Source of the DNA: Halichondria panicea
Lineage: Eukaryota > Porifera > Demospongiae > Suberitida > Halichondriidae
Direction of reading: 5' to 3'
Length of the DNA: 64,000 nt
NCBI RefSeq assembly: GCF_963675165.1
Contig: NC_087390.1
Location: 1,941,501-2,005,500 of the forward strand
Positions 1-49,500 of this stretch are shown here, piece after piece. Below the pieces are notes generated by a model, which searched no databases, was not told the origin of the DNA, and worked only from the letters and a program-made list of their open reading frames with translations. Within the stretch, counting starts at the first letter, position 1. Every line of letters begins with the position of its first letter. The position numbers were made by a program, and so were the translations under genes.

Positions 1-3000
1 ATAACTAAACAAACATTTCAAAAATAAAAACATCAACTGATAAGAATGACCTATATACAGCTAAGGAGGGAACGGCAGGGGCGATATAAAAATTGTTCCG
101 ATGGCTACTACAAAGCTAGAGACTGGGCATCAGTGCATGGAAAAAACTTAGTAACAGCACTATACACTAGCTATATACCTGGTGTGTTGAAGATGTCCAT
201 TCTGTGCTGCATCAACGATATCTTGAGTACTCATATCAGGCAAAGCTTGTTGCCCAAACGTTAGAATCTCCCAAATCATAACGCCATAAGCCCTGTAAAA
301 AAATTATATTGCAATACTTCAAGAGGACATAATTATAGCTGAGTCTGTACTAAAGATGCTCCATGTTTTACGTGAAACCCACTTACTAGTTAATAATTAG
401 TTACACTCACCAGACGTCAGAGGCTGAAGAGAACTTTCCGAGGAGCAGACTCTCGGGAGCCATCCACCTCACAGGTAACACGGCACTGCCAGCTACTCTG
501 TAGTAGTCCTTGTTGTTCACTCCTCGTGCCAGACCAAAGTCAGCTATCTTGATCTGGAGTCCAGAACCAACTAGAAGGGGGAGAAAACACTTTATTCTGA
601 AACTGTTTCTTGTAGTCATCAAGCTAAATCTCCTAATGCATACGCACATAATAATATAGTTTCCATGGCAACTTTCACGCTTTGGTCCGTCCTATAATCC
701 AACCAATTACAGTAACTCACCTAGACAATTTCTCGCTGCCACATCTCTGTGCACATACTTGTGCTGGGACAGAAACTCTAGACCATGAGCAACCTGCAAC
801 CAAGGAAACACGATATGTATAGTCAGTCAAAACTACACCATGCACACTCATACGTATAAACTAATTATGTTCTGGACAGCAAAAAATACTTATTTTAGAA
901 ACTGTCCGGGTATAATTAGAACAGATTTGTATAGAGCATGCGATTAAGTGTCCGGAATTATTAGAACAAGCAAGCACCTGCATGCGAGCTAGTAGAACAG
1001 TGTGCGACTGAATAGTTGCACTAGCTATCTAAAACTAGCTATACTCCAACTGAAGCACTCCAAGTTAGTTGCCGTCTATGAACGTAACTCAACTTTCAAG
1101 GTATTGTCCGGATATTTAGTAATAGTAAAGCACCGGATTGTCCGTTGTATTAGAACAACAAAAATTCCCCAGAAGAGTGTCCGGGGTAATTAGAAGTGTC
1201 CGATAAATTAGCGGTAATACATTACATGCAGTTGTTCATACTCACATCATAGGCAAAGGTGTAGAAATGCAGCTTCTTCAGGGGTGAGGGCTTGTTGGGA
1301 CCAGGTCTGTATGAAGGGTAAACAGGCAAGTATATATACATGTACTACACTATTACAGAGCTAGAGAGCTGTCTATTGTGGTCACAGTCTCCATAATTAT
1401 AGCACGTGTTTCAACCTGTTTTATATAGCAGGCCACCTTTATTACATGTACAGCTACTGTTGGTCTGCCTATAAGGGTGGCTGCAATTTGATCACAGTTT
1501 TCATGCACTCCGTATTCAAATTTAAGCCAGAGCACATAATTTATTACACCGGGGGAGGTTTGCAGTTGAATATCTTCTATCTTTAGTATCAGTAATCCAA
1601 TTTCTGAATGGTAGGAACCTTTCAAAGGATGTGTTTCAATTAAAATTTTTGTTGGGGCCATAATTTGTCATTTTGGCCATGGTATATTTGGCTGAATTTG
1701 GTAAAATCGATACAAGAGACTTTGTATAGATCTACTTTTGGCATCCTTTTTAGCATAAATCATGGTCGATCATTTCCCACTCTTCAAGTTTCCCTGCGAT
1801 TATACCACTTGATGATACAGATGCAGCGAAGTTATGATAATTATCTGTGAGTGTGTATTAGCAATAGCTATAGTATAGCTTTATGTTATGTAGCTTTGAC
1901 ACACTGGGGCGGGGCATCAGCACTCACGGTGCTTCTGTTACCTCTATATATAGCTACCACACTGATACAGGTAAGTGTTATGGAGTGCTGTGAAATTGAT
2001 CTTAACCTGTTATCTACTAGGAATCCATGGAGGTCTCCATACTGCATGTACTCCAGGATCATCAGAGGAGCACTGTCCTCACCTTCCTTCTGTCCAATGA
2101 AACCTAAATGGAGATTTAGGAGATACCAATGCAGTAGCTACCTCACACACATCGATTAGGTGCATGGCAAACTTTTTTAATATAATTTATACAAGAGTTC
2201 ACCATTTAATTCGTCATCTCTATACTCTTAAAGCTGTATATATGCATCATGTGACGTGCACACAGAGTACATTGGAGTATCTCACCTAACAAGCTGACAA
2301 TGTTTGGGTGGGTAAACTTCTTCATCAGTTCAGCTTCCTCGACAAACTTTTGTATAACAGCAGAGTCTCTACTTGTGAGTGTCTTCACAGCCACTGGAAT
2401 CTTACCCGTGTAGCCAGCTATGTCCTTTTCGAAATAATAAACACAAATGTAACGCTGATTATGATGGAGGAAGAATATGCCATATAGAATATGGAGGCTA
2501 TTTTCTACTGCTAGAACACTGTGTATATAAACATACTATGACACTTACTCTAGCTTCCATGAGAAGAACTTTTCCAAACTGTCCTTCCCCTAGTTCCCTC
2601 ATGTAGGTTAGTTTGGATCGAGGGTACTGCCATTGCTGTATATGTGAGTATATATGCACTGAGGTTCACTGTACAGTTGCCTAGAGCTATACTATAGTGT
2701 TCAGAGTGGTGACTACATGCATAGTATAATAGTACCTGCACATTGTTGTGGAATCGCTGTCTGTTATAGGTACAGAAATCCACGGATGGTGTCTTGATTC
2801 CATGTATAGGCTGGAACAGGGCACTGGAATGAGACCCAACAACCAGATCAACTGCATTATCCTGAAAAATACCATCCTGAAAAATAAAACAAGGTAAAAA
2901 CTATACAATCACACAAAAGTTTATTACGTAATTAGGTACTAAAAATTGTCAGGGAAACGGCAAAAACATGCATGCATCCATGTAGACAAGAGGGATAGAT

Positions 3001-6000
3001 ATCTTCACTAATGATACTCAAGCAATATTAAACAACAAAATCTCATCATAATTATTATTATAACTACTACGATAAACCTCTGATTGGTCGATGTGCAGCG
3101 TCTCATATCCCGGCTCCTCAATATTAGTGGGTACTCTACGGCTGGGAGTCTGCAATAAAGAAGCTCAAAAAATCAGCAACTAATTCGCAATGCCAGCAAA
3201 GAAGTCCATACAAAAATGTGTGTGTGTGTGTGTGTGTGTGTTTGTGGGATGGTGTACAGTACATGGGAAAGAGTGAGGAAGAAATACAGAACAGTGGGGG
3301 AAACTTGGGATGTAAAGGTGGGTGAGAGAGTGAAATGTAGACTATGTGCGTGGCTTACCATTTGATACTCTGAGTATGTAGAATTGAGCTGTAAAGACTC
3401 TGTTTTCAAGAAATAGTTGTTTTGGTGTCTGTCTTCAGAGAGATGGAGTAGTGTTCTGCATGTATAATGCATGCCAATATATCAAAATACAACAGGCAAT
3501 ACTCTTTATCATAACATACTGACTGCATGTCTTGTTGTAGCCCATTTAACTCATGCAGTAGTTCATTTACGTACATTTTTCTTCTTTGTTGGACCTTGTA
3601 GTAGACCACACCTATTATCACGGCAGTCAAAACCACCAGCAGAGTTACCCCCAGTGTTGATCCGACCACTGCACTTGCAATGAATCCACGATCGTTGCTA
3701 GGCTCCATCGTTGTGGTTCGTGCTATACTGTTGCTAGGCTCCACCGTTGTGGTTCGTGCTATACTGTTGAGCAATTCAGCAGAGATATTCCTGTTCTGAA
3801 AGTCCACATCTATATGATTATAAGATAATGGTTCGGAGATAACATAACAGCTGTTAATAACCAACAAAATCAGCCTGCCAGGTGTGATATGCTATAATGT
3901 TTATGCAAACCTGTATCTGGAGTAATGATGCTGATGTTAGCTGGAATCGTGTTGTTAGCTAGTCTACAGTCCCTATAGCTCAGTAGTACCACGATGGTGA
4001 CTGTCACAGGACTCTGCAGTAGCCTCACAGGGTCTGTTCTCTGTGTGATGTTGCCAGTAGCGTCCAATGAGATTACAGAGAGGGTGTCAATTGTACCAGA
4101 CCCTCTGTTTGTTGTGGGTGTAGAGTGAGGTTGTCAATACATTGTTTGGCTATCACACACAATACAAAGAACCTAGTATGGAGGTATACATAAGGGAAAC
4201 ATAGAGCACAATTCTTAATGAATGTGTACATAGCATGACAATGACAATAACCACACAGTATACAATGGTCATACATATCAGTACATCGATCGTTGTGAAC
4301 GGACAATCTTCTAAATGCAATAATCTCACCTGATGCTTTCCGACACTACTACTTGTTCCAAACTCTCTCCAAATAGGACAATCAAGCAATTCTCCCCCTG
4401 TGGCATGTCTCCAACCTGACGTTTTGTCACCCTGACTGGCTCAACAGACACACCCACACTCAAACTGAGCAGTCCTATGGCTGCAGTGAGGCGAAGTTCT
4501 CGAACATTATAGCTGTCTGGAATGGAAATAAGTTCTCCTTCTTCAACTGCTACTTCTCTTTCTGTAAAATAATAATAAGAAATGCTCATTTTTAATACTG
4601 ATACCTCACCTTGGTAACAGCTTCTTCCGTCCTCAGCCAGGAGAGTATCATTCGGACACAAGCACTCAAACTGCTTCTCCTCAGGGTACACCACACACTG
4701 TCCAGCACACTCACAGTTGGAGGACACTATCTCAACGTATCCATCATCATCATTGTGATTCCTTCCCAGCATTCTTGCAAGAGGTAACTCGGTCCTATTG
4801 AATATCCCGTCATCTCCACCACTTCCTGGTATGGTATTTGAGTTCCGAACAACGTGCCCTCCTGTGTAGCCTCCTCCCGCTCCCCCGGAGTCACACCCAC
4901 CTCCGCCACCACCATAGCCACCGAATACACCAGTGAATACACGGGATTTACTTGGAACACTTGATGAACAATCAAAGCCACCTTGTGCAAAGTTGTTTGG
5001 TTGACTCAACAGTTTTCCATCCACTTCCAACAAAGGAAATCCCTCCACTGCAGTCCAGCCTCCACCTGATCCAGATGTAGTCACGAAAGAGTCAGCTGGC
5101 CTAGTGCCCCTGGCTCCTACTGGCCAGTTTAAGTTGTACCGAGTGATGTGAGCATTCACGTGAAACCTATAGATCTCCTCACTCGTACCATTACTCGGAT
5201 AATTAAATGGAATATTTGAGAGTAGACCCATGAGTGTAAGTTCTAATGATTCGTAATTCAAAACAGCTGAGGCCCCTCCACCTCCTGGGGCTATTGCAAT
5301 CGGCAAATCAGTGAATTCTGAATCGTTTTTTCTCCTCGGCCAAATCATACTAGCACCACCTCCACCACCACCACCATTTAAATGAGCTGCGTTGTTACCT
5401 TCTGGGAGTGCTTCATTTATCCAATTATTCCAATCAACTTCGCAAACCTCCGCTTCTGTGAGGTTTCTTGGTCTTGGTTGTTGGCATATCGGATTGTCTG
5501 CATTATCGGGTACATCACACACACTGGTTCCTCTGTGTCCCACCAAGATAAGGTACTCGTAGTCAGTAGTCAGTTCAACTTGCATGCCAACCACTCCACC
5601 CAATCCATACTTGAAATTGCACAAACCCTCACCCCCTCTGGCTCCAGCAATGGTGATGTTGTAGAGGTCATTTCTTGGTAAGCGAAATCCCTGTCCTCCA
5701 TCGTATTGACCATCTTGCTGCTCGAATTGAAACAAGGTTTGATCGGTTACAATTGGCGAGTTTATCTGTTCATATAAACGACCACACTCAGTGTTTACCC
5801 TGGGGCCATCGTGGTTTGATGCTCCGCAGTTGGTGAACCGATAGGTAATCTCTGTGAGATCTGTGTAAAAGTTAGTTTAAACATGAATTTGATAAAATGT
5901 TTAGATCTAGCAGTTGGTGAATTGATACGTGCAATTTCATTGAGAGTCTAAACTGACTACAAGTATATGATGCACACCTATATCTAGATCTAGCTATAAT

Positions 6001-6189
6001 AATTATATCTAGCTCTAAATCTAGCTATCTTGAAAGGCTGCTATAGATCTAGCACTGCAATGTTATAATAGTGGTTTAGCTAAGAAACTTACTCCTTCTT
6101 CTAGATTGAGCCTTGAGAAGTGAAGTGCTTGCCAACAGAAGAAGGAATTGAAACCATCTGATTCTCATTGCCTCTTCTGCTTTCTTCAT
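1..6189 (-). CDS. ALK-like receptor tyrosine kinase, copy 1 (3' end outside window)
   Basis: Single-pass receptor tyrosine kinase. Exons read on the minus strand: 6189-6093 (signal peptide, hydrophobic [10 protein letters not shown]), 5860-4610 (glycine-rich domain plus EGF-like stub), 4561-4330, 4104-3911, 3809-3575 (transmembrane helix), 3455-3359, 3149-3078, about 2876-2736, 2635-2549 (Gly loop GEGQFGKV), 2424-2286 (VAVK lysine and alpha-C Glu), 2103-2007, 1306-1246, 793-721 (HRDVAARN), 570-411 (DFG, activation loop [16 protein letters not shown]) and 292-179. The last exon, which in the paralogs carries the end of the C-lobe, must lie left of base 1. All catalytic residues are present, so it should be an active kinase. 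The glycine-rich block with two Cys and the following NCECAGQC...[10 protein letters not shown] segment resemble ALK/LTK. Cytoplasmic tyrosines such as GYETLHI are possible docking sites (inference). Exon order and phases match copies 2 and 3. Confidence 0.85.
4562..4609 (-). other. 48-bp intron without stop, in frame
   Basis: This intron of receptor copy 1 begins GTGAGG and ends TTTTACAG, is 48 nt long and contains no stop in the reading frame, so the surrounding exons form one continuous open frame. I call it an intron because copies 2 and 3 have an intron with the same phase at the same place whose sequence breaks the frame. Retention would add 16 residues just after the EGF-like segment. 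Confidence 0.7.
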
Positions 6190-6540
6190 CTTGCTGTTCA
6201 GAGTTAGTTGCTGTTGATAAAATGAATATGAGAGGGGCGTGGCTGCTTGAGCTGTTGTGCTGCAAAAGAGACGATGCACCTGAATTTGTCTTCACTCTGG
6301 AACTCTGTGTATAGATCTATTTCAATCTCAGGCCAGGAGAGAGAAGGGGTAATGAAATTAATGTCAGTGTGACTGTCAGTGTTGTATTCTGACTCTGTGC
6401 AGCCTTATAAGGGCAATTACAGTTATTTGTGCCACAGATTTAACTAAAGTCACATACCGTTTCACCAATTGCATTTCAATCCAACACAATGGGCCTATAG
6501 AGTGATCCAAGAATGTACACCTATCTACGAACAGATGACT

Positions 6541-7566
6541 CCTCCCCAATCGTAGCTGACAGTGACTGACTCGGATCCACGGCAACTACGATGAAGCACA
6601 GGAACTTCACCTACCAAGAAATGACCTCTACAACATCACCATTGCTGGAGCCAGAGGGAGTGAGGGTTTGTGCAATTTCGAATATGGATTGGGGAGCATA
6701 CTATCAAGATGCAAGCCAGACTGACTACTGACTAACGTGTACCTGATCATCATCAGTCACAGAGGAACCAGTGTGCATGTGCAATGCAGCTACAAATTTG
6801 CTAATCTAATTTTCGAAAATTTAATTTCCAAGAAGCTCAAGTCTGCAATAGCTCGTGGTAACAACCCCTGATGACAGATACAATGTCCTGCATAACGGTG
6901 ATGGAAGTAGTATATGATACGGCCATTTCGGGCAAGGAGAGTTGACACTGACCAACAATTCATTGACCTACCCATCGTCATAGCACCTGGAGGTGGAAGG
7001 GCCTCAGGTCTTCTAGACTACAAATTTCTCGCAAATTTTCTACCAGATAACCTCCTATCCCCAAAATACAAGCAGCAAGGATATATATCAGTTCCACATC
7101 GGTGGGCACTTTAGTCACTACACTTAAGCAATGGCAAGACTTCTAATTGCACAAGGCGAAGCCGAGTGCTATTGTTATGAGTGCTACTAGTCCCTTGTTG
7201 CACGAGTAACCATACTAATCTTTATGATGCAGTTCTCCGCAATTCTCTGCAGTTGTCTGCAGTTTTAAGCAGTTTAGGCAGTTTAAGCTGGGCCGTTAAT
7301 CGAAAACAACCTCTGTTATGATGTAGCAAATTTGTTTGGTTCTGCAGACCTCAACATGCTCCAGATGATCTCAGTCTCCTTATGACAAGTTGTCACCAAT
7401 GGGAGGTGGATAAGAGGCCGTCATTCAGCCATGCATGGGACTGTTTAATTAACGTGGTCAACAACAGACCATCCCTCCTAAATTCCACAACAGTGAGCAT
7501 GCAAGAATCTGGCCAGACGAACAGTCTAGACCTAGTGAAAAAGAAATGTGAACATCCTTTATTGTA
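6541..7566 (+). pseudogene. Decayed fragment of an ALK-like receptor gene
   Basis: Three blocks are recognisable against the intact paralogs. Bases about 6590-6780 match the start of the glycine-rich domain exon ([16 protein letters not shown]) but carry indels and stops. Bases about 6914-7045 match its middle (LPIVIAPGGGRASGLLDY). Bases about 7345-7566 match the terminal kinase exon, including the acceptor CTGCAG and the [18 protein letters not shown] segment. The signal-peptide exon, most of the ectodomain and nearly all of the kinase are missing, so the piece looks like an internally deleted copy on the plus strand. It lies between the divergent starts of receptor copies 1 and 2. Bases 7130-7340 hold nothing I recognise. 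Confidence 0.85.
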
Positions 7567-7677: not shown

Positions 7678-10600
7678 ATGTCCACAGCACTGAGAACATT
7701 GTCTCTGTTGCTCTCCGCATGTGTTCTTGTACTAAGTGCACTTCAGTGCCACGCTAGAAGAAGAAGTAAGTCTATAGCAGATCTAGTCTACTTATCAAAG
7801 CTAGATCTAGACCTAAATCTTTTCAAAACTGCTGCAACATTTTAACTATCAGGCCAGCACTTTGATTAATACTTGTACACATACCTTCCCTATCTCACCT
7901 TTACACAGATCTCACAGAGATTACCTATCGGTTTACCAACTGCGGATCATCAAACCATGATGGCCCCAGGGTAAACGCTGAGTGTGGTCGTTTCTACACA
8001 CAGATATCCTCACCAATCGTAACCGATCAAACTTTGTTTGAAGTTGATAATATCAATGATGAGTACGGTGGAGGACAGGGATTTCGCTTACCAAAAAATG
8101 ACCTCTACAACATCACTATTGCTGGAGCCAGAGGGGGTGAGGGTTTGTGCAATTTCGAGTATGGATTGGGTGGAGTGGTTCGTATGCAAGTTGAACTGAC
8201 TACTGACTACGAGTACCTTATCTTGGTGGGACACAGAGGAACCAGTGTGTGTGATGTGCCCGATAATGCAGACAATCCGATATGCCGACAACCAAGACTA
8301 AGAAATGTTACAGAAGCGGAGGCTTGCAAAGTTGATTGGAATAATTGGATTAATAAAACACTTCCAGAAAGTAATAACTCAGCTCATTTCAATGGCGGTG
8401 GTGGTGGAGGTGGTGCTAGTATGATTTGGCCGAGGAGAAAAAATGATTTACGATTTATCAATTTGCCGATTGCAATAGCGCCAGGAGGGGGAGGGGCCTC
8501 GGCTCTTCTGGACTACAAATCATTAGAACTTACACTTTCAAGCTTGTCTTTTAATTATCCAATCAATGGAACCAAAGAAGAGATCTATAGGTTTCATGTG
8601 AATGCTCATTTTGATCAATATCTCTTAACCTGGCCAGAGGGTGATAGGGGTACTAGGCCAGCTGTAATTACATCCGGATCAGGGGGAGGCTGGAATTCGG
8701 TGGTGGGATTTCCTTTATTGGAAGTTGATGGAAAACTGTTAAGTCAACCAAATAACTTTGCACAAGGTGGCTTTGATTGTTCACCAAGTGCTCCAAATGG
8801 ATCTCGTGTATTCACTGGGGTAAACGGTGGCTATGGTGGTGGTGGAGGTGGGTGTGACTCCGGGGGAGGGGGAGGAGGCTACACAGGAGGACACGTTGTT
8901 AGGAACTCAAATATAACACCAGGAGGTGGTGGCGATGTTGGGATATTCAATCAGACAGAGTTACCTCTGGTTGGAATGCTGGGAAGGAATCACAACGATG
9001 ATGATGGATACGTTGAGATAGTGTCCTCCAACTGTGAGTGTGCTGGACAGTGTGTTGTGTACCCTGAGGAGAAGCAGTTTGAGTGCTTGTGTCCGAATGA
9101 TACTCTCTTGGCTGAGGACAGAAGCAACTGTTACCAAGGTGAAGGATCAATAATTGATGTATTTCTCATTAATTTGCTTTTCCCATGCATTAACAGAAAA
9201 AGAGCTAGCAGTTCGCGAAGGAAAACTTATTTCCCTCCGAAACAGCCTCAATGCTCGAATGCTTCCCCTCAATCCAGCCGTAGGAATGCTCAGTCTAAGT
9301 GTGGGTGTGTCTGTTGAGCCGGTCAGAGTGACAAGACGTCAGGTTTTAGACAGACCACAGGGGGAGGATTGTCTGATTGTCCTGTTTGGAGATAGCTTAG
9401 AGCAAGTAATGGTGTCAGAAACCATCAGGTGAAATTCTACAAGTATAGTATTGTCTGTTCAATGTACTGATATGTACAACAATTGTCTGGTTGTTTGTAC
9501 TGTATACAAAGAATTGCCTTTATTAGCTTCATACAGTGTATTTTGTGTGATAGCCAAACAATGTATTGACAACCTCACTCTACACACACAACTAACAGAG
9601 GGTCTGGTACAATCGACACCCTCTCTGTAATCTCATTGGACGCTACTGGCACCATTATACAGAGAACAGACCCTGTGAGGCTACTGCAGAGTCCTGTGAC
9701 AGTCACCACCATGATATTAATGAGCTCTGCAGATTGTAGACTAGAAACCAACACAATACATGTTAACATCAGCATCTTGGCAAATGGTATGTACAGAGAG
9801 ATATAATGTACAAAAAATGTACCACCTACAAACGCATTCAGCTGCAGGCACTCTTCAAACCGCCAATCTTCTTGGTAACTTGTTCAGCAGTGTTATTCAA
9901 GTTACTACACAAGAGCCTGATGGACCGCTCAACGATGGCTACCCTGGTCCCCTTATCGGTACTATCATCGGTTCAATAGCTGGTATTACCTGTATGATTA
10001 GCATAGTTGCAGCAGTTATTGGAGCTGTGTGCTACAATCGATCGCAAGTGAAAAAAACCAAGTATGTTCCAATCCTCATTAAGATAATTATACAAATTTT
10101 GTTGTCATAATAATATAGGTCATTACTTCACCAGCTGTCCCTAAAAAGACGACACCAAATCAACGAACCTGAGAGTGGAGCCTTAGACTTTAACTCTGCT
10201 TACCAGCCAGCTGTAAGCTATATGTATACTGTAATGTATACTAGATAGTAAGTATAGTTTTGATACCATTGCAAGCCATGTTATGCTTAATATCAAGATA
10301 GGCCTAGCGCTACGTAATCTGCCTGGAAACGAGGCTAAGTATAGATAGCCTTGAACTGTACGTATTATAAACGTATACTCGTTTTCACATTATGCAATGA
10401 TCTTTATTTGATTAGCCATATCTTGGGACATCAGAAAGCAGTTTTCCCCACACGTATGAAAGCGTTGGGATTGCATATACACAGGTACAGGATTATTATA
10501 AAATAATTATCAGCTGCTGTATATTTTGCACTAAATTAAGGAAGCTGTGGTGGAGACCGTTTCAGGCCTGGGGTCACCTGGTTCCGAGGTCCAGTTCCAA

Positions 10601-12661
10601 ACCATGCATGGAATCAGTATCCCTGAAGTGGACTTCTGTTCCTATAACAAGATGCGATCCATGACATCTATTCAGGTATGACTTATGAGGCACAGGATAT
10701 CCATACAGCAATGAATAAAGCATTTACAGAAATGGAGCTACCCTCGCTCGAACTTAACTTATATGAGGGAATTAGGGGAAGGACAGTTTGGAAAAGTGCT
10801 ACTGATGAAAGCGACAGTAAGTCAAGACTTTTTTTTATTGTGTATTACTGAACACTTCTTCCTCTTAGGACATAGCTGGCTACACTGGCAAGATTCCAGT
10901 GGCTGTGAAGACACTCACCAGTAGAGACCCTGAGGTGATACAGAAGTTCATGGAGGAAGCCGACCTCATGAAGAAGTTCTCTCACCCAAACATTATCAGC
11001 TTGCTCGGTAAAAGCTTACCCAATTATTATTCATACCGTGAAAAGAAGCTAATCTCTATATTATACAAAATTTCAGTAAGTAGGCATGCAGATATACTCA
11101 CTCAGGCAATGGGAGTGAATAGTCTAATTGTAATCCTATAATCACAGCAATTAATGTACTTTGCCTCCCCCCTAAAATACGTATCCCCTACAGGTTTCAT
11201 AGAGCAAGAGGAAGGTGAGGACAGTGCTCCTCTGATGATCCTGGAGTACATGCAGTATGGAGACCTCCATGGATTCCTAGTGGATAACAGGTTAGGTTAA
11301 TTACACGTGCAATGCTCCCTAGCATCCATAACAAAATTGAGGTAGCTATAATTGTATAGACTGCATGAGGTGAGGTACATGTATAGGTACAATAAAGGTC
11401 AGCAAATCACATGCATGCTTCATTAATGTTAATTTTCCACACAATAAGAATGAATGCACTGTATATATAGATAGATCTATACATTAATGTGTTTATACGT
11501 GCATGGTCTTTATCTCATGAGTATGTACTGCAGACCAGGACCTGGCAAGCCATCATCTATAAAGAAGTTACACTTCTATACATTCGCTTATGATGTAAAT
11601 TAAAACAAGTTCTTTCATTTGAACCAAGTGAAACTCTTTTTGTTCACAGATTGGTACAGGACTGGAGTTTCTATCCAGTCAACAGTATGTGCATCGAGAC
11701 ATAGCAGCGAGAAACTGCCTTGGTAAGAATCTTGTATTTTTAACTAAACATTTCGCAGATTTTATTTTTGAGGATAGAGGTTCAAATGACCACACACTCC
11801 TACATTAGAGAGGTTTTGCACTAGGTTCAAGGTCAATCCTCTTGAACATTTAGTGCCTTGAAATCTATATCAACGTCCTTTTTTTAAATAGTTGGCCCTG
11901 GGCTCCAAATCAAGATAGCTGACTTTGGTCTGGCAAGAGCAGTGAACAACAAGGACTACTACAGGGTAGCTGGCAATGCTGTGTTACCTGTGAGGTGGAT
12001 GGCTCCAGAGAGTCTGCTCCTTGGAAAGTTCTCTTCAGCCTCTGACGTCTGGTGCGTGTGTAAGCTATGAAGTTATAATTAGTGTCCCATTGAAAGAACA
12101 ACTCGAATGAGTTGGAGAGCTCACAGCATCATGTGATGCGATGATTGTCTTATGCCAGTCCGTCTTTTTTTTTTCATAGGGCGTATGGAGTAGTGATATG
12201 GGAGATCCTTATGTTTGGACAGCTGCCCCTGCCCAACAGGGACACTCAAGATATCATCAAAGCTGCACAAAACAAGAGGCTTGAACACTCGAGGTAAATA
12301 AGTATTCAACAAACACTTATCACAATGATTCAGATTAAGTATTCTGCATGGAAGGGATTGTTAAGTTTGCATTCAATGTATCATTCTACATCTGTCATAT
12401 TCAATTACTTCACTCCATGTTTGTGGTGTGTATAATTATAATTGGTTCTGCAGACCTCAACATGCTCCAGATGATCTCAGTCTCCTTATGACAAATTGTC
12501 ACCAATGGGAGGTGGATAAGAGGCCGTCATTTACCAAGATTGTTGCCATGGAACTGTTCAACATAGTCAACAAGAGACCATCCCTCCTGAATTCTACAAC
12601 AATGAGCACACAAAAATCTGAGGCAGGCGAACAGTCTAAATATAATGAAACAGAAATGTGA
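7678..12661 (+). CDS. ALK-like receptor tyrosine kinase, copy 2 (complete)
   Basis: Sixteen exons, about 1045 residues: 7678-7765, 7909-9138, 9197-9428, 9599-9786, 9902-10061, 10119-10212, 10416-10484, about 10541-10675, 10730-10816, 10869-11007, 11194-11291, 11534-11595, 11649-11721, 11891-12050, 12179-12294 and 12453-12661 (TGA). Signal peptide at residues 1-26, glycine-rich domain about 72-393, EGF-like Cys segment about 400-440, a 150-residue stalk, transmembrane helix about 598-622, then a juxtamembrane region with NSAYQPA and [11 protein letters not shown]-type tyrosines, and the kinase from about 745. [20 protein letters not shown] and DFG are all intact, so the kinase should be active at the plasma membrane. 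The ATG was chosen because it opens a signal peptide and the same leader (GCTGCAAGCAAG) precedes the starts at 14648 and 14443. Ligand unknown. Confidence 0.88.
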
Positions 12662-12730: not shown

Positions 12731-12953
12731 TGTTACAAGCTGTGCTGTTGCTAATGCCCTTTGTATAATGTTATATTACAAAACAAATGTTTTTGCATGC
12801 ATAGCTACATATATATGTGACAATGAACGAATTAAATTCTTCCTAGAAGAGAAGTCTATATCTGAGAAGGCTACAATGTATAGTTCATTTCCTGTCAATG
12901 AATAATTAAAAAAGGGGTGGATCTGCAAAGAACTCTTGACCTAAATTAAAAAA

Positions 12954-14075
12954 ATGTCCTCTCCAGCTCCCAAGATAACTAAAATAGCAGTCTATCAAGT
13001 AGACCTCCCTCTGAAGGAAGGCAGCTACAAGTGGTCTGAGGGAAAGTCTGTCCAGACATTCGATGCAACCATTGTTCAGGTGTCAACAGATATTGGAGTG
13101 ACTGGCTATGGAGAGTGCTGTCCACTGGGCCCAACCTACTTGCCATCGTATGCTGAAGGTTGCAGGGTAGGGATAAAGACTCTTGCCCCTTCCCTGATTG
13201 GAAAGAATCCCCTTGAGCTCCTAAAACTGAACGAATACATGGATAAGTGTCTCAAGGGTCACCCGTATGTCAAGTCACCTATTGATGTGGCTTGTTGGGA
13301 TATCTTGGGCAAAGTTACCAAACAACCCATAGTCACTCTGCTTGGAGGCCGCTTCGGTGAGGAGTATAACCTTTACAGAGCCATTTCTCAAGGCACTGCT
13401 GAAGAAATGAGACGATCTGTGGAGAAGTATCAGAGCGAGGGATACAAAATATTCCAGCTCAAGGTCGGAGGTAAAATAGACGAAGACATTTCTCGAATCA
13501 AGGCCTGTTCAGACATCCTTGCACCAGAGGAGCTGTTGATAGCAGATGCCAACACTGGTTGGCTGATGCACGAGGCTGTACGAGTGTGCAACGCTGTGAG
13601 AGACTACAGCAACGTCTACATCGAACAGCCGTGTGCCACATACGAGGAAAACGCTAGTGTTCGAAAGCAGTGTCAGCTACCGATGCTAATGGATGAGAGC
13701 ATGGATGATGTTCATGTCCTGAACAGGATCATTACAGACAAATCAGCCGATGGTATCAATCTCAAAATTTCCAAAGTTGGTGGGCTGACGAAAGCAAGAA
13801 TGATCCGAGATCTCTGTGTCTCCGTAGGACTGGCCATGAACGTGGAGGACACATGGGGTTCCGACATTGCCACGGCAGCCATCTCACACTTGGCTCACTC
13901 CACACCTCCTCGTTACCTTCTCATGAGCACAGACTTCAACAGCTACGTCTCCAAGGATACGGCTGACGGGGCACCCAAGAGGGAGCATGGTTGCATGAGA
14001 GCCCCTGAAGGTCCTGGGCTGGGGATAGAGCCAAAGATGGCTGTCTTAGGAAAACCCCTCTTTGAGATTTGTTAA
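12954..14075 (+). CDS. Enolase-superfamily (mandelate racemase/muconate cycloisomerase) enzyme, intronless
   Basis: A single 373-residue open frame. The N-terminal capping domain (residues about 8-130) is followed by the TIM barrel. Metal ligands of the superfamily are readable: D198 in IADANTGW, E224 in YIEQPC and D247/E248 in LMDESM. Acid-base lysines are K170 in FQLKVGG and K271 in NLKISKVGG; VEDTWGSD at 297-304 fits strand 7-8. These features place it in the muconate-lactonising subgroup. The closest group by memory is cis-3-hydroxy-L-proline dehydratase / hydroxyproline-betaine epimerase, which would fit an animal turning over 3-hydroxylated collagen, but the substrate is inference. The absence of introns in a 1.1-kb gene between intron-dense receptors suggests retrocopying or bacterial transfer. 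No organellar signal is obvious. Confidence 0.85.
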   Translation: MSSPAPKITKIAVYQVDLPLKEGSYKWSEGKSVQTFDATIVQVSTDIGVTGYGECCPLGPTYLPSYAEGCRVGIKTLAPSLIGKNPLELLKLNEYMDKCLKGHPYVKSPIDVACWDILGKVTKQPIVTLLGGRFGEEYNLYRAISQGTAEEMRRSVEKYQSEGYKIFQLKVGGKIDEDISRIKACSDILAPEELLIADANTGWLMHEAVRVCNAVRDYSNVYIEQPCATYEENASVRKQCQLPMLMDESMDDVHVLNRIITDKSADGINLKISKVGGLTKARMIRDLCVSVGLAMNVEDTWGSDIATAAISHLAHSTPPRYLLMSTDFNSYVSKDTADGAPKREHGCMRAPEGPGLGIEPKMAVLGKPLFEIC

Positions 14076-14647: not shown

Positions 14648-17600
14648 ATGAGGACATTGTCTCTGTTGCTCTTTGTGTGTGTGGTCCTTGCACTAAACAC
14701 GCTTCAGTGTCACGCTAGAAGAAGAAGTAAGTATAGACTGTATAGACTACAATAATAATTATTATCTAGCTATAGATTCTAGATCTCTAGTCTCTAGCTA
14801 CAGCCTGGATTAGATCTAGTTTGGTGAATCACGGTGTCAGCTGCAGCTCTAGCAGGCCAGCACTTTGACTAATGCTTGTAACATGTACCTTCCCTCTCTC
14901 ACCTTCACACAGATCTCACAGAGATTACCTATCGGTTTACCAACTGCGGATCATCAAACCACGATGGCCCCAGGGTAAACGCTGAGTGTGGTCGTTTGTA
15001 TGAACAGATAAACTCGCCAATCATAACTAATCAAAGATTGTTTCAATTTGAGCGGCAGGATGGTCAGTACGATGGAGGACAGGGATTTCGCTTACCAAGA
15101 AATGACCTCTACAACATCACCATTGCTGGAGCCAGAGGGGGTGAGGGTTTGTGCAATTTCGAGTATGGATTGGGTGGAGTGGTTCGTATGCAAGTTGAAC
15201 TGACTACTGACTACGAGTACCTTATCTTGGTGGGACACAGAGGAACCAGTGTGTGTGATGTACCCGATAATACAGACAATCCAATATGCCAACAACCAAG
15301 ACCAAGAAATGTCACAGAAGCGGAGGCTTGTGAAGTTGATTGGAAAAATTTCGTCAATGAAACGCTTAACGTAGAACATTTCAATGGTGGTGGTGGTGGA
15401 GGTGGTGCTAGTATGATTTGGCCGAGGAGAAAAAACGATTCAGAATTCACTAATTTTCCGATTGCAATAGCGCCAGGTGGTGGAGGGGCCTCAACTGTTC
15501 TGGACTATGAAGCACTACAACTTATACTTTCAAGTATCTCTTTAAATTATCCTAGCAGTGGTACCAAGGAGGAGATCTATAGGTTTCATGTGAATACGCA
15601 CTTCATTCAGTACGGCTTAGACTGGGCAGAAGGAGGCCGAGGCTATAAGCCTAGACCACCTAATGAATTCGTAGTACTTATTATATCTGGATCAGGTGGA
15701 GGCTGGAATCCAGTGGTCGGATTTCCTTTGTTAGAAGTTGATGGAAAACTGTTGAGCCAACCAAACAACTTCGCACAAGGTGGCTTTGATTGTTCATCAG
15801 GTGTTCCAAGTGAATCTCGTGTGTTTACTGGTGTATACGGTGGCTATGGTGGTGGCGGAGGTGGGTGTGGCTCCGGGGGAGCGGGAGGAGGCTACACAGG
15901 AGGACACATTTTTGGGAATACAAATACCATACCAGGAGGCGGTGGCGATGTTGGTGTATTCAATCTCACCGAGTTACCTCTTGTAAGAATGCTGGGAAGG
16001 AATAACAATGATGGTGATGGATACGTTGAGATAGTGTCCTCCAACTGTGAGTGTGCTGGACAGTGTGTGGTGTACCCTGAGGAGAAGCAGTTTGAGTGCT
16101 GGTGTCCGAATGATGCTCTCCTCGCTGGGGACGGAAGCAATTGTTACAAAGGTAAGCTGGGATTTTTTTATTACAAAAAGTATATAAACTATGTTATACA
16201 ATTTTACAGTGTACCTACACTTAGCTGTTACACATTTGTGCGATCAGTTGGTGATTGGTGACAACTTCCCAGTGTTTAATTTTGTTGCGTTTCATTTTCC
16301 TCCTCCAGAGAGAAGTGTTTTTGTCAACGAACAAGAACCTATCACAGTCACCAGCAATGGGGAAACAGTATTTCTCACTGGCCTACAATTCAATGGCTCT
16401 CTCAATATCTTTGGTCTAGACGTGACCCTAACGGTGAACCCCATATCAGATGGTAACAGTGTTGCTATGGAGGACGTTGCTTGCGCTGTGGTGTTTGTGG
16501 GTAGAAACTCTCAAAGTGTTGTAGCGTCTAATCCAGTCAGGTGGGACTTTTGTGGAATAGTGTAAAGTGCCAAAACAATATTCATTGCCGAGTGTATGAG
16601 ACATGCAATGCAGATAGTATTCTCTTGTGTATTGGTAGCAATCTTTTCTGGTATTCATTAGTGCAGGACAACTGTCAGCACATTAATTTCTGCTGCAGAT
16701 TCTATAATTCCATGTTGTGTGTTACTGTGTGTGTGTGGGAACATCATGATTGTATGTACATTTTTATTTATTTATAGAGTTGATGGTTCTGGGCGATCAT
16801 ACAAAATATCAATACTAGAAGAAATCGACAATGGAACGAATGGAGTGAAGCCTAGCCCAGACTATGTCACTTTCCTTCCAGACCCGATTCTGGTACGCGG
16901 TGCTGTACTGGTCTCTAATGGGCAATGCTCACTGTCAAGTCCTCTACAAGTCAACATCAGCTCTGAGAGTGGCATACGTAAGCTGAAACTAACGTAATTA
17001 TGTTGGATGAATGTTGTGTTATGTTGTGTTATGTTCAATTTAGTTGCACTGAAGTCTATAATTATTGTTTTGTCACCATTTGTGGGATTTGCTTGACCAT
17101 TATTTTAATGCAAAGCTAACTGTTGCCAAGTCATTCAAAAAGCTTTTTTTTCTACAGCTCCAATCAATGACTTCGGAAACTTTGAAAATGATTTTGTCAT
17201 TAACTCGGCAAGGTTTATTCTTGCTGCTGAGGAAGCGCCCACTACGACCAGTACACCTCCCGAGCCTGCTCAGGGTGCTGTTAACATTGGACTGGTATTA
17301 GGGCTTGTGATTGCTGGTATGTTGCTAACTGCACTGGTCGGCATTGTCATTGTCGTGGTCTACATTAGATACTCTCCAACGAAACGAAGGTACGGTGTTA
17401 GAAACAGTCAGAACCTTGCAGTGTATGAAGCACATTGATAATTATAATTGTTATTTCTAAAACGGAAGCAGAACTGTGGTGAAACGTTGAATGTACATAT
17501 ACTTCTCTCTTGTTTGATTGTAGGACTGTGATAATTTCTTCAACGAGGGAGTCCGGTTCAAATCTCATCGATCCAACTACTGCTACAGAGACTACTTTCA

Positions 17601-19497
17601 GTGCTGGCTACGAAAAAGTCAAGGTTGGTGATTGCATATTCATGTTACTTATGGTTTATAATTTTATTGCTTTGGCAACAGGACGGTGAAGTTGAAGCCA
17701 AAATAGACAAGGACACTGGAAATGAGTACAGTTACGTCACGGTGAAAGGAGGTGGAGCTTCTATTAACCCTTATGCCACCCTTACATCAGACGGCATGGT
17801 CAGAAAATTTTGAAATTTGAAATTTGCTTTGAATTGCAAACTCTATACTTACAGGCGTACGAGACTCCTGTGAGTCTCACAGGTGACGGTTTCAAGCCTA
17901 GATACGGCATCATTGCTCCTGCCATCGACTTCACCATGTACAACAAGGAGAGATCTAGCTCTACTATCAATGTGAGTCCCGAAAACTGTCGCAATTAAAT
18001 TGAGATTGTATCACAGAATTGGGACTATCCTCGCAATAACCTCGTGTATTTGAGAGAACTTGGAGAGGGACAGTTTGGAAAAGTTCTACTAATGAAAGCA
18101 ACGGTTCGTTGCAACTAGTACACCTTATATAGCTTCTACTTTGCGACCCTTGCATCAAATACCTCCCCTATTGGCTACGTTCGTTTTAGTCTTTGCTTAC
18201 ATATAGGACATAGCTGGCTACACTGGTAAGATTCCAGTGGCTGTGAAGACACTCACCAGTAGAGACCCGGAGGTGATAAAGAAGTTCATGGAGGAAGCCG
18301 ACCTCATGAAGAAGTTCTCTCACCCAAATATTGTCAGCTTGCTCGGTATCAGTATTGCTGAATCAGATGGTGAGATTGACGAGGACAGTGCTCCCTTAAT
18401 GATCCTAGAGTACATGCCGTACGGTGATCTACAATCGTTCCTCACAACTCACAAGTAAGTTTTCCATATTGAAGCCTATTTCTAACACTTACACAGACCT
18501 GACGATGAAACACAACAAACATCAATCAGTCAGCAACACTTTTTGAATTTCTCAATTGATGTAAGTATCGGAAAACTAGCTATTTAAACTGATGTAATGA
18601 TTGTAACACATGCATAGATGGCGAGAGCTTTGGATTTCTTAGCGATTAACAAATACGTCCACAGAGATGTAGCTGCAAGGAATTGTCTAGGTATGTCCCA
18701 TCACTATGCATGCACACTCCTGTCATGCATGGTAACACATTATGTCCATGCATGCATGCAGTTAGTCCCGACCTCCACATCAAGATAGCCGACTTTGGTC
18801 TCTCCAGGGGTGTATATGACAAGGACTACTACAAGATAGCTGGCAAGGCAGTGTTGCCTGTGAGGTGGATGGCTCCCGAATCCCTCCTGTTTGGAATCTT
18901 CTCAACAGCATCCGATGTATGGTGAGTCGGAAGCAATTTACAATGTCCCTTCAATTGTGTATTATATAACTGTAGTCAAATTAAGCAGGCTCCACTCGTG
19001 GTGTCGGTGCCTTTCCGTCAATTCTTTTAAGTTTCAGCCTTGCGACCATACTCTCATTATATTCACGAATATAGTATAATGATTTAACTATAATGTAGGT
19101 CTTATGGTGTCACCATCTGGGAGATCACTAGCTATGGAGAGACACCTCTGGAGGAGATGGAAGTTCAAGAAATTGTAACGGCTGCTCAAAATATATCTCT
19201 GGAGCATTCGAGGTAAACTATATTGCTGCATGTGTACTAATCTACTCCCGCAAAAAATGTCTCTTCATCACTGTACTTTTACTATAATGCATGATATATA
19301 ATTATAGCTAGACTTTAACTTTGTTGCATGCGCAGCGCAGTTGGATTTTAATGTTTTAATTAACTTAATGTATTTGTTTCAGGCCACAATATTGCAGTGA
19401 TGAGCTGTATGAGCTGATGTGTAATTGTCATCGACATGATGCTAAGGACAGGCCATCTTTTGAAGACATTCTCACACTGCTGGTGAAGAAAGACTGA
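14648..19497 (+). CDS. ALK-like receptor tyrosine kinase, copy 3 (complete)
   Basis: Fifteen exons, about 1058 residues: 14648-14726, 14913-16151, 16309-16540, 16778-16977, 17158-17389, 17524-17623, 17682-17798, 17855-17970, 18017-18103, 18207-18454, 18497-18560, 18618-18690, 18762-18921, 19099-19212 and 19383-19497 (TGA). Signal peptide, glycine-rich domain with [22 protein letters not shown]-like Cys segment, stalk, transmembrane helix ([20 protein letters not shown]), tyrosine-rich juxtamembrane region ([27 protein letters not shown]) and kinase with [23 protein letters not shown] and [10 protein letters not shown]. It has lost one intron relative to copies 1 and 2: the exon after VAVK runs on through EYMPYGDL. 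The stalk and juxtamembrane regions are the most diverged parts. It ends shortly after the kinase fold, without the Ser/Thr-rich tail of copy 2. Confidence 0.88.
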
Positions 19498-31847: not shown

Positions 31848-38809
<6,962 letters not shown>

Positions 38810-44235: not shown

Positions 44236-45159
44236 TCACACAAATATAAATTCCCTAATGTCACAGTTTCTAAAGTTCTTTAAGTGATCGTATCTCTCAT
44301 TAGGGGGAACTCCATTGCATATAGCCCAAAGTACTTGCAACGGGTCTCCATGGGAAACAAGCACGACAATCTTATCAGTGTACTCTTCTTCGATTGTCTT
44401 CAACACTCGGGTCACCCGGACAACCATCTCTGAGACTGTTTCGCACCCGGAAACGCTTTGCGTAGGATTGATTCGATCTTGCTCCAATAGAACAGAGTAA
44501 GCTTCTTGCCATGGTCGGAGGTGAAACTCTCCAAGCCCTCTTTCTCGAAGTAAAATATCAGTTCGAAGAGGGGCCTTAACTTTGAAGTGGCTGTGAATGA
44601 ATTGAGCAGTTTCAAATGTTCTTTTAAAGTCTGAAGTGATCACAACAATCTTCTCTGTCAGGTCGTCAGTGCTACCAGAGTCAGTTAAAATGGCTTCAAG
44701 TTTCTTACCAGCCTGGAGGGGGAGGGAGGGGAAGAAGGAACGTGTGATAGAGGCAATCACCAATCGACAAATGAGAACATAGTATTGGCAAAGTCGCTAT
44801 TTGATATAATATTAATTTACTTGCTTAACCTCCATGACCTCTACCTACCTCCTTAGCTTGCTGCTCTCCTTTCTCCACTAGACCAAACGATGGTACTCCG
44901 TCCTTGGGATCTGACACTAGAACCCCCTGTACGTTACTCTCAGCCTGCACAAACCAATAGCAATTATAAATAGCAAAACATAGTCGAGTCAATCATGTGG
45001 TGTTTAATAATAGTGGTATTGCATGTAGCCTAACAGCCAAGTTATTATGCTCTTAATTACCAATCCATGCCTGACTAGAAATATCCTGTTCTTCAAGGTG
45101 CCGGTGGTAGTGCTGTCAGCAGGACCAGGACCAGGGAGAGTACTAGATCTTGTAGCCAT
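44236..45159 (-). CDS. Histidine phosphatase (phosphoglycerate-mutase-like) 2
   Basis: Exons 45159-45061, 44944-44849 and 44712-44236 on the minus strand, about 223 residues, same intron positions as copy 1. Motifs: LVRHGL (Leu instead of the usual Glu after RHG), ITSDFKRTFETAQFI, LRERGLGEF, VSHGDPLQVLW. Exon 2 encodes SDPKDGVPSFGLVEKG, almost identical to copy 3, so copies 2 and 3 are a recent tandem pair. Both catalytic His and the Arg residues are present. Start chosen as the ATG opening exon 1; its Pro/Gly/Thr-rich first 20 residues are unlike copy 1. Confidence 0.85.
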
Positions 45160-45291: not shown

Positions 45292-46345
45292 CTACACAAA
45301 TTTAAATTCTCTAACTTCACAGTTCTTGAAATGTTTTAGATCCTTGAATCTCTCAGTAGAGGAGACTCCATTGCATAATGCCCAGAGCACTTGTAGTGGG
45401 TTACTGTGGGAGATAATCACTACAATCTTATCGGTATACTCTTCCTCGATTGTCTTCAGCGCTCTCATCACCCGGACAACCATCTCAGGTACAGGCTCGC
45501 AACCACGAACTCGTTCGGTAGGGTTGACCCTGTCATTTTCGAGGATAATTGGCAGTGCCTCTTTCCAGGGAGCTCGATTAAACTCTCCAAAGTCTCTTTC
45601 CCGAAGTGCTACATCAGTTTTGATTGGGGTCTTTGGTTTAAAATGACTGTGCATGATTTGAGCAGTCTCTATTGCTCGTTTGAAGTCTGAAGAGACGATC
45701 ACCAACTTCTTTGTGAGCTCCTCAGCTGTAACCGTGTCTGCAGTCAAATTGACTTCAAGGTTTTCAGCAGCCTGAGAGATAAATCATTTTTTACTATTTT
45801 TGAGTAGAGCTATAGCTAATGCCTAGCGCTTTTAGCTCAGACAAATGATTCAGATAAACGAAACATCTCGCATGTACGTATATAGATCTATATACATGTA
45901 CAGTGTGTGCTCCGTGACAGTATGGTACGGTTACCTCCATGGATTCTGTCCTCCCTTTCTCTACTAGACCAAACGATGGCACCCCATCTCTGGGGTCTGA
46001 CACTAGAACCCCTTGCACATTACATTCAGCCTGCAGGGAGAGCTTGCATTGGTCAATGAACATAAATGGCATATCAAGACTTATTAGTTGTCCCGGCAGT
46101 GGAAGACGACGCTGACAGATTAGTCTCGGGCCAGACCTATTAAATATCTTGGGGGCAAAATCAAGTCTCTAGAGCTGGAATTTTCCCCTTCTTCCCTTTG
46201 AGAAAAGGTCTGGCCCCCTCCCTAACTATAACTTACAGATACTAAATAAACTGAGAACATGGATTTCACTCACCAAACCATGCCTCATCAGAAATACCCT
46301 ATTTTTCAAGGGCCAAGCCTCTAGATCTCCAGTAAGTGTGGTCAT
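45292..46345 (-). CDS. Histidine phosphatase (phosphoglycerate-mutase-like) 3
   Basis: Exons 46345-46274, 46030-45935 and 45771-45292 on the minus strand, about 215 residues. Motifs: LMRHGL, VSSDFKRAIETAQIM, LRERDFGEF and ISHSNPLQVLW. The usual second motif SHG is SHS here, a change next to the second catalytic His that may alter activity. Tandem with copy 2, same strand, about 110 bp apart. The 3' exon ends only about 130 bp before the start of copy 2. Confidence 0.83.
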
Positions 46346-46586: not shown

Positions 46587-49500
46587 TCAATTAATTAGTG
46601 TCTCATGTTCTACAATTACAAAATCGGTGTCACCAGTCAAACCACTGAGTTCTTTGGGAGTTATTCGTCCAAATCTATGCACAAGCGTTATTCCCCTGTG
46701 GAAGACCATAGCTGCAAACTGAACAACTATGATGAAGCCATATACCACTAAGAAAAGCAATTGAAAAGCTTGCGTATCTAAGCCATAATCGGCGAGGAGT
46801 GGGAATTTAACAATGTACAACACCAAAAGCCACATCATATTGATTAAGAAGAGACCGATTAGAGTGGCATTTCGGAGATTACGAAGTGACCTCTTGAGAT
46901 CTTTCACAGATGTGAGCTGCTCAGAAGTTGGTTTGAGTTGATCAGCAACAAGATTCTTCCAAAAATTCTCTTCTTGGCTATCCAGTTCGCTAGTAGGTTT
47001 CATTTCTATATCCGCTTTCGTTTTGGCCATCTTCTGTTCGACTGTATAAGGAAGCAACAATCGTTACAGTAACACTTTAGACTCAATTATGCATGCATGT
47101 ACACAGACTATACTTTTGTTTGGGTAAACCAGGAAATGTAGTGCCTTCACCAGCCGTTGTAAGTGTGCTGGAAGTACAAAACAGATCACAAAATTAATAA
47201 TGAAGCTACTCCATTTTTTTTATGTACCTCTTTTGGTGATTCCCATTGCTATCAAGTCAACTTCCGTCAACCCTTTCAAATTCTCTACATCGGCATTCTT
47301 ACTGTATCCTTCTTTCTTAAACAAATCAATGTGTTCCTCCATGTTTAACTTTGTCAACCAAGAAGCCACATCTCTCTGCAAGTGTATGGCGCCGGCATAA
47401 TTATACTGTCATGTAGCTATATACTGGCGTAAGAAAAATTTCTTAGGCTTTCACTGACTTACAGGCACATCCACGTGAATAGAAAACGATGGAAGCTTTG
47501 CAGCAGCTTTGAGAATACGAAGTCTGTACCCACGCTTTTCAATTCCTATTGCTTCCAAATCCTACAATAAATGCATCAAAATAGAATAAGCAGCTGATAA
47601 TAGCATACCTCAAGCGTCATTGTTGCAATGTAGTGTAGTGTGGTGTAGCCATGCTCTTCAAATTTCTTGATGTAGTCCTGCATGTGATACGTAATAGAAA
47701 TTATTGCATGAGACCGAGTGTTTTATGAGCCTGCACAAGCATGAGGGCGAGTTGCCTGCATGTATATTGCAAAACACAAGGATTTCTCATGCTATAATTA
47801 TATATCACGACAACCCCTTACCAAATTATGTCTTGAGGCTACGTGACCGTGTAATATAACACAGAAGGGACTGTAAGACTTTTTTACACCCTTACACCCT
47901 TGTTACCTTGACAACGTGATATATAAACTACTTATACACAATGCCTTGTGGGTTACCCTGTTCGTGTACCTCATCACATTCGCATTCTTCCCCACTGAGC
48001 CACTGTTGTGCAGTGTCTTCCATAGCAGCACAAGCCACTAGCATAGGATCGTCTTCGGAATCACCTGTTCAATAAAGAAGCGATTGTAATGTAAGAAACA
48101 AAATTTACAATTCTTACTAGAGCTTAAGAGGTCTATCTCCTCTCGGGGTACTTGGGCAGGGGCATCTGACCGACAGCACCTACTCTGAACGCAACACCAA
48201 AACCACGCCATTTTAAAGTACTTTCCCCATCCGAGCAATCCTTTGTCAATTCCACTGCTGCCTTCCCGAGTGCCCCAGCTTTGAGAGTCCAGATTAGCAG
48301 CCGAGTAGATCAGCAACAGCAAATAGCCCGAGGGCAAGGCCAAGATATACCAAATACAGTGGAAAAGACAGGCAAACTCGGTAGGATGCAAGAGGGCAGC
48401 TGTGAGGAACGTAAATGCAAATAGGCCAAAGTACATGGTACTTATGCTAACTGGGAGCTTAAATTGATGACCGAAAGACATAGTTTCCAAGAAATTTACA
48501 GCTTCTTCGCATTTTGTATAAGCCTTTAGATCTACGACCTGAGAACAATTTGGAGCGTTCAGTTCAGTTAGGTCTGGATGATGAAAGATGGCATTGACAA
48601 TGTGACTAAAAATTCCCGAAATAACAATCACCATCACCATCACAAACAAAAAAGTCAGAATCTTTGCCACTTCTATTTGCGTCTTGGGAGAAGAGTAAAG
48701 GCAAACCACTCCATATAACAGGCTCACAATCACAAGAACAAAAATGACAAGAGAAACCACAACATCAGAAATAGAGAACGCTGACTGAAGGCCTGAGGCA
48801 ATCACCAATATCACCGTGGCGGGGGATATAGCCGTGGAGAACACCATAATAGCTTGAAACAGAATGAACAAAAAAGACACGGTGTCATTAGCACGGATTA
48901 TGGTAAACAGATTAGTGAACAACAAGCTTAGGTTGGCAAGAGTGGATGGAATCCACCTTCTACGCTGGGCATAAAATTGCTCAAATGTTTGCGGGCAATA
49001 GGTTTTGCTTTCGGAGGTAGCACAATATTCGAGTCGCCAGCCTTTCTCAATAAGAAGTGTACACAGCCATCGATCTTCACCCATATCCTTCATTAGAAAC
49101 TCCATCCCATTGGTCGCCACGGTAGAGTACGTTTCAAGAACCCCCTGTAGAGCACTGCAACGAAATACGCTAAAGCAGCCAGGAGAGCAGAGGACACATC
49201 CTAGCAAATGCTCGGCCGGTTTTTGGAACCAATGCCCTATTGCATAATCGAATATTTGGTACCAATACAGAGGCCCCGAGCCCTTAGGGTGTGTACGGGC
49301 ACATACCGCTCCAACACGATGATTAGAGTCGAGCATGTCCAATAGAAGAACAGCTGACTTCGGAGTAAAATCGACATCGGCGTCTGTTGTAAGTATGAAA
49401 GTGTTTTCAAGCGTCATTTTTTGACCAGCGTTAAGTTGATCACACTCGCCAATCCGATGTTTGATGATGTAGTTCATGTACATGACTTGGCTCCACCTCT

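Follow-up and report, generated by a model that had tools for sequence, protein, structure and literature searches.

Does a sponge carry the ligand-binding module of the receptor tyrosine kinases ALK and LTK and, if it does, to what kind of kinase is that module attached? The question is raised by a group of receptor genes in Halichondria panicea, three of which fall within a 64,000-nucleotide stretch of the genome (referred to here as the window). The original prediction for this locus read the outer part of the receptors as an ALK/LTK-type glycine-rich domain with an EGF-like stub, and left two histories in play: descent from a common ancestor with ALK, or the independent joining of the ectodomain to another kinase.

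According to excerpts of PMC8662651, ALK is among the kinase families that emerged in bilaterians, and its kinase motifs are older than its distinctive LDL-A domain. A study of ALK/LTK evolution (PMC7851593) searched among vertebrates, other chordates, hemichordates and protostomes; a term search of its text returned zero occurrences of sponge, Porifera or Cnidaria. A term search for ALK in a review of sponge cancer genes likewise returned none, and the open-licence literature searched yielded no account of this module from sponges. Were a sponge receptor to contain the true ligand-binding module, the origin of that module would shift to the base of the animals, and its age could be told apart from that of the kinase; such a receptor would also provide a test system for the role of the ALK ligand site before ALKAL, Jeb or HEN-1.

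A cluster of receptor genes on one contig

A whole-genome search with the ectodomain of the second window copy (131 Mb, 39 contigs) gave eight matches, which all fall at 1926.8-1957.7 kb of contig C14. Five are long copies (g0 to g4), two are fragments of a degraded copy, and the eighth is a short secondary match within g2. Two of the long copies, g0 and g1, precede the window, while g2, g3 and g4 are copies 1, 2 and 3 of the original prediction. The search scored the best candidates only, which makes the copy number a lower bound; in the one sponge genome sampled, at least five full-length receptor gene models and one degraded copy lie within ~35 kb of a single contig. The degraded sixth copy, which sits between g2 and g3, shows that the cluster loses copies as well as gaining them.

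Gene models were derived from genomic sequence alone, using a GT-AG protein-to-DNA aligner with a query of 1000 residues built from g3, and they include doubtful micro-exons in the juxtamembrane part. The models cover query residues 3-962 (g0), 8-988 (g1), 20-998 (g2), 1-1000 (g3) and 5-993 (g4), and all five are free of stops under an aligner that itself penalises them. Piecewise tblastn over 50 kb placed kinase exons downstream of all five long copies. The membrane-proximal and transmembrane pieces of g3 were matched in g1 and g2 by tblastn, and one piece also in g0; the remaining parts of g0 and g4 were taken from the splice models. The architecture reads, in order, signal peptide, a TNF-like plus glycine-rich part (TG), an EGF-like part, ~170 residues, a transmembrane helix and a tyrosine kinase, the motifs of which are intact in all five copies. 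In g3, the ~170-residue stretch between the EGF-like part and the helix matched no Pfam family at E up to 1, and the membrane-proximal region of g4 gave two Pfam matches, both below cut-off. Coordinates are collected in Table 1.

The sequence blocks that first drew attention to the locus are encoded, as claimed, by a minus-strand open reading frame of 516 aa (4326-5876). This frame runs through a 48-base intron, and the interval originally singled out, 4330-5860, is exactly two spliced g2 exons. Plus-strand frames at 7866-9317 and 14882-16261 encode the same ectodomain; over the module, copy 1 is 84% and copy 3 is 81% identical to copy 2. The further claim that all three copies share the same blocks has to be narrowed: SGSGGGW and one 21-residue block occur in all three, but the quoted 19-residue block and the 10-residue Cys-rich ending are exact in copy 1 only, with variants in copies 2 and 3.

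Table 1. Receptor gene features in the window, by window position
Feature	Position	Strand	Basis and remarks
g2 signal-peptide exon	6093..6168	-	ORF; start codon inferred; spliced model covers 6093-6123 only
g2 TG + EGF-like exon (1251 nt, phase 1-1)	4610..5860	-	ORF, splice model
g2 first membrane-proximal exon, no known family	4330..4561	-	tblastn, splice model; homologous g3 stretch without Pfam match (E up to 1)
g2 second membrane-proximal exon	3911..4104	-	tblastn, splice model
g2 stalk + transmembrane exon	3575..3758	-	tblastn, splice model; hydrophobic stretch by eye
g2 kinase exons	2549-2635, 2286-2424, 2007-2103, 1246-1306, 721-793, 411-570, 179-292	-	tblastn, splice model
g2 last kinase exon	outside window	-	splice model
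Sixth, degraded copy, located between g2 and g3: fragments of TG interrupted by stops, part of last kinase exon	6434..7489	+	genome search, tblastn
g3 signal-peptide exon, ends in phase 1	7678..7765	+	splice model
g3 TG + EGF-like exon (1230 nt, phase 1-1)	7909..9138	+	PF12810 36.6 bits against a cut-off of 24.5; ALK (PDB) E 7.1e-19
g3 two membrane-proximal exons, no known family	9197-9428, 9599-9786	+	splice model, Pfam
g3 stalk + transmembrane exon	9848..10061	+	tblastn, splice model; hydrophobic stretch by eye
g3 tyrosine kinase, 8 exons, motifs intact by eye	10730..12661 (stop 12659-12661)	+	PF07714 268.7 bits
g4 signal-peptide exon	14648..14726	+	splice model
g4 TG + EGF-like exon (1239 nt, phase 1-1), predicted exchanged module	14913..16151	+	PF12810 29.9 bits on longer reading frame
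g4 membrane-proximal exons; transmembrane exon	16309-16540, 16778-16993; 17213-17394	+	splice model
g4 kinase exons (divergent relative to g1-g3; activation loop with YxxxYY)	18017..19482	+	small model exons after 19482 not trusted

The predicted ectodomain is related to that of ALK and LTK

Searched against the PDB with phmmer, copy 2 matched 13 sequences at E up to 10, the top eight of which were ALK or LTK (7.1e-19 to 1.2e-10); the other five scored E 0.49 or worse. A profile of the five ectodomains matched 48 sequences at E up to 10, with nine below E 0.05. All nine were ALK, LTK or worm SCD-2 (best 5.9e-27), ahead of every other glycine-rich protein in the PDB, and the next match stood at E 0.09. 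The match of copy 2 to ALK consists of two co-linear stretches, an N half (19-212) and a C half (270-423), so that the blocks follow the same order as in ALK, as had been proposed. The N match begins in the glycine-poor, TNF-like start (FTxCG..GP..C) and the C match ends in the EGF-like part.

Glycine runs inflate scores of this kind, and a glycine-rich, cysteine-stabilised ectodomain might resemble ALK by composition only. As a control, glycines were kept in place while the other residues were shuffled 1000 times, and the procedure was repeated with cysteines also kept. For g3, none of the 1000 shuffles reached the observed score in either half, also when cysteines were held (z 7.4 to 13.7), and the N half of g0 gave z values of 16.8 and, with cysteines held, 11.5. 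The C half of the divergent g0 is weak: its score was reached by 4 of 1000 shuffles, and by 49 of 1000 with glycines and cysteines held. This half therefore lies within shuffle reach, which, together with the want of a PF12810 match in window copy 1, speaks for convergence. Against it stand the shuffles of g3 and of the g0 N half, the lack of any other glycine-rich PDB protein below E 0.05, and the span of the match from a glycine-poor start through to the EGF-like part. We regard convergence as highly improbable.

Of the window copies, 2 and 3 reached the cut-off of the Pfam family PF12810 (ALK_LTK_GRD), copy 1 having no match of its own. Searched through the genome, the family found three places, namely g1, g3 and g4. 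When the five copies were compared with it at E up to 1, three matched. In the sequence alignment, 11 of the 12 cysteines of the ALK stretches (six in TG, six in the EGF-like part) align in g1-g4 and 10 in g0; where one does not align, the sponge copies have, by eye, another cysteine a few positions away. An AlphaFold model from the three window ectodomains reached a pLDDT of 25.7 and was unusable. Taken together, the profile matches and the glycine-held shuffles bear out the homology originally proposed, and the predicted ectodomain is genuinely related to the region through which ALK and LTK bind their ligands, including its EGF-like part.

Relatives were also sought in other groups. Among bacterial and archaeal genomes, 240 pattern matches yielded no relative. 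Four candidates from viral contigs (L023-L026; 193 pattern matches) reduce to one 479-aa open frame, presumably a phage capsid-type protein, that shares FAEGGFD and, by eye, little else; they were rejected as chance. In the fungus Drechmeria coniospora, three proteins carry PF12810, a model that bore the name glycine rich protein at the time, but unlike the sponge receptors they are mentioned in the excerpted text of PMC4859500 with no reference to a kinase, an EGF link or a function. PF12810 alone is therefore not proof of an ALK-type receptor.

Like mammalian LTK and ALK, the sponge receptors combine TNF-like, glycine-rich and EGF-like parts in one order, followed by a transmembrane helix and a tyrosine kinase. 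They also resemble mammalian LTK (as described in excerpts of PMC10605310) in having no N-terminal MAM/LDL-A part, and in this respect differ from ALK as a receptor family, the MAM-LDLa-MAM region being missing from the sponge models. The predicted absence of MAM and LDL-A agrees with the gene structure, in which the signal-peptide exon is spliced straight to TG. Further differences from ALK and LTK are an additional stretch of ~170 residues, assigned to no known family, that separates the EGF-like part from the helix, two extra conserved cysteines (Cys80 and Cys139), and the placement of the whole binding module in a single exon. The C. elegans ALK homologue SCD-2 (PDB 7lir) matches the sponge profile best from the glycine-rich to the EGF-like part (E 3.9e-9), although more weakly than ALK and LTK do, and it keeps its N-terminal part (PMC10605310, in excerpt).

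The kinase probably belongs elsewhere

The five kinases are of the INSR/ROS/Trk/Ror/MuSK/DDR kind, with a tyrosine kinase domain (PF07714 in g3, 268.7 bits) and intact motifs; the set is called the IRKL group in excerpts of PMC8662651. Their dN/dS (NG86) was 0.08-0.27 in nine of ten pairs, those where the ratio is defined. Raw PDB scores of the g3 kinase gave no separation (ROS1 197.6, ALK 196.7 and TrkB 196.3 bits), with ROS1 and ALK leading the ranking after a tandem EGFR construct. Trees were built with 16 reference kinases, then with ten kinases of the same sponge added, and then with a reduced set under two models. Of 14 of the reference sequences, the 4 that were compared with the PDB were exact.

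The g0-g4 kinases formed one clade (support 100/100), which the best trees place alongside Trk, Ror, MuSK, DDR and other sponge kinases, at moderate bootstrap (80-90) on the key branch. Forcing this clade together with ALK and LTK cost 21-31 log units and was rejected in four trees (AU p 0.0242, 0.029, 0.00965 and 0.0164). The statement that the kinase half is not obviously ALK-like is supported. A clade with ALK and LTK alone is rejected (p 0.010-0.029), but wider groupings are not (p 0.05-0.22): a clade with ALK, LTK and ROS1 (AU p 0.106, 0.129, 0.0501 and 0.0941), or with ALK, LTK, ROS1 and INSR (0.131, 0.15, 0.204 and 0.224), was not rejected.

These results bear on whether the sponge receptors could be vertical orthologues that share a TG-EGF-kinase ancestor with ALK/LTK, their kinase half having merely diverged. 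Such descent would account for the order of TG, EGF, transmembrane helix and kinase, which is that of mammalian LTK, and it is consistent with the rank of ROS1 and ALK among the PDB scores and with the wider clades that were not rejected (p 0.05-0.13 with ALK/LTK/ROS, p 0.13-0.22 with INSR added). It is opposed by the rejection of an ALK+LTK-only clade in all four trees, by the position of the kinases in the best trees, and by the activation loop, where the YxxxYY motif is present in g4 only and the first Tyr is missing from the other four copies. We consider vertical descent unlikely. The kinase, to judge from these trees, is not the sister of ALK/LTK and probably belongs elsewhere. The receptors beside which it falls, Trk, Ror, MuSK and DDR, have Ig/LRR, Frizzled-CRD and discoidin ectodomains that are unrelated to the TG module.

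Searched with human ALK, this genome gives as its best match a different kinase (C9:2584845, 225.9 bits), which the trees put near Trk/Ror/MuSK. This ranking is no fair comparison with the cluster kinases, since the latter are split into short exons. Another sponge kinase (C4:7302305) has an activation loop much like that of the TG-module receptors; a clade uniting the two is absent from the best tree and was not rejected (p 0.108), and the ectodomain of this kinase may bear on how the module swap arose. Two tandem clusters of tyrosine-kinase-like genes, at 1.70-1.73 and 1.91-1.94 Mb of contig C10 (among L028-L045), were also seen. Three genes of the first cluster (L028, L031 and L036) group with human DDR1 at 98/94 or better, which suggests a sponge expansion of the DDR type.

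The binding module as a probable exon cassette

The complete TG+EGF part is a single exon in g1-g4 (1224, 1251, 1230 and 1239 nt, respectively), in each case divisible by three and in phase 1-1. We compared synonymous divergence between copies by the NG86 method, taking synonymous sites as unconstrained. The dS of this exon was 0.22 for g4/g2 and 0.29 for g4/g3, whereas the three exons that follow it are 20-32% identical in amino acids between g4 and g2/g3, and the kinase exons of g4 are mostly at dS 1.1-2.7 from g2/g3 or saturated. Between g3 and g4, seven of eight kinase exons were at dS 1.1-2.6 or saturated and one, of 139 nt, was at 0.11 (0.61 for g4/g2). Nucleotide similarity between g3 and g4 stops 2 bases past the TG+EGF exon, and the region 16309..17394 of g4 is 26-29% identical to its counterpart in g1-g3. 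Likewise, dS over the whole kinase was 0.89 for g1/g3 and 0.78 for g2/g3, as against 0.30 and 0.28 over TG+EGF. The kinase trees gave ((g1,g2),g3),g4 with bootstraps of 90-100; the TG+EGF tree joined g4 with g2, at a support of 80/80 that fell to 53/52 on codon positions 1+2.

Since TG+EGF dS is low in comparison with the diverged flanking and kinase exons, the binding module is, by this measure, recently homogenised or exchanged between receptors with long-separated kinases. By the same measure, the TG+EGF part of g4 was recently common with g1-g3, though its kinase is a much older paralogue. Exon exchange indicates that the module is able to move without its kinase, and therefore favours the alternative raised in the original prediction, a separate joining to another kinase. 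We consider it likely that a binding module of the ALK type, itself ancient, was transferred as an exon cassette to a receptor kinase other than ALK. Because the ALK-related outer part sits on a kinase that is probably from elsewhere, the module seems to have a longer history than the ALK receptor and to be more mobile. Whether the module predates both the ALK kinase and the sponge split, having been a cassette of one exon in phase 1-1 that became attached to various receptor kinases and is still moving between neighbouring receptor genes here, so that like binding modules come to sit on kinases that are old and diverged, is a proposition on which we find the scales evenly balanced.

Candidate ligands and proposed mode of action

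By homology, and by analogy with the ALK/LTK structures in excerpts of PMC12017499 and PMC10605310, a secreted ligand would bind the TG/EGF part, two receptors would dimerise upon binding, and the dimerised kinases would phosphorylate each other, turning the kinase on. ALK contacts ALKAL2 at site 2 through S737, Y739 and L760 (PMC12017499, in excerpt). The aligned equivalents read T, A and M in g1-g4 and T, A and G in g0; thus, besides having a kinase that is not their sister, the sponge receptors are unlike ALK/LTK in not keeping these contacts. No ALKAL gene (PF15129) was found over cut-off in the genome (best E 0.22) by an exon-wise search that a small spliced gene could escape. Given the changed site-2 contacts and the failure of the search to detect an ALKAL gene, ALKAL is probably not the ligand.

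The same two observations would fit a module that serves in matrix binding or self-adhesion and not as the receptor of a soluble cytokine, with the tandem copies recognising variable partners. Exchange between copies fits this as well, as does the finding, by eye, that the copies differ most in length-variable stretches. Lost ALKAL contacts say little, however, because no homologue of augmentor is known beyond the vertebrates, and the ALK proteins of worm and fly use different ligands (excerpts of PMC10605310). Moreover, mean dN/dS over TG-EGF was 0.31-0.45 across the six pairs of g1-g4, with no sign of diversifying selection on average. We judge an adhesive role to be improbable, somewhat more so than vertical descent, and retain the reading of an ALK-type ligand-binding module.

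Other features of the window and genome

An intronless, single-exon gene resembling mandelate racemase/muconate lactonising enzymes lies between two of the receptor genes (12945-14075, plus strand; PF13378, 155 bits). Further along are three adjoining histidine-phosphatase-like frames, the first recognised by PF00300 (43657-44136, plus strand) and the others by eye (44236-44796 and 45292-45783, both minus strand), and a chitin-synthase-like exon of 800 aa (48038-50440, minus strand; PF03142, 90 bits). A minisatellite at 32823-33083 consists of a 26-base unit in 10.0 copies with 99% matches, and is open in all three forward frames. Elsewhere in the genome, a pattern search found that contig C2 carries DCGASYAFS twice, 9 kb apart (two matches, against none for the reversed control), from which the host is very probably a demosponge; we take CGASYAFS to be the active site of silicatein, a cathepsin-like protein with Ser in place of Cys.
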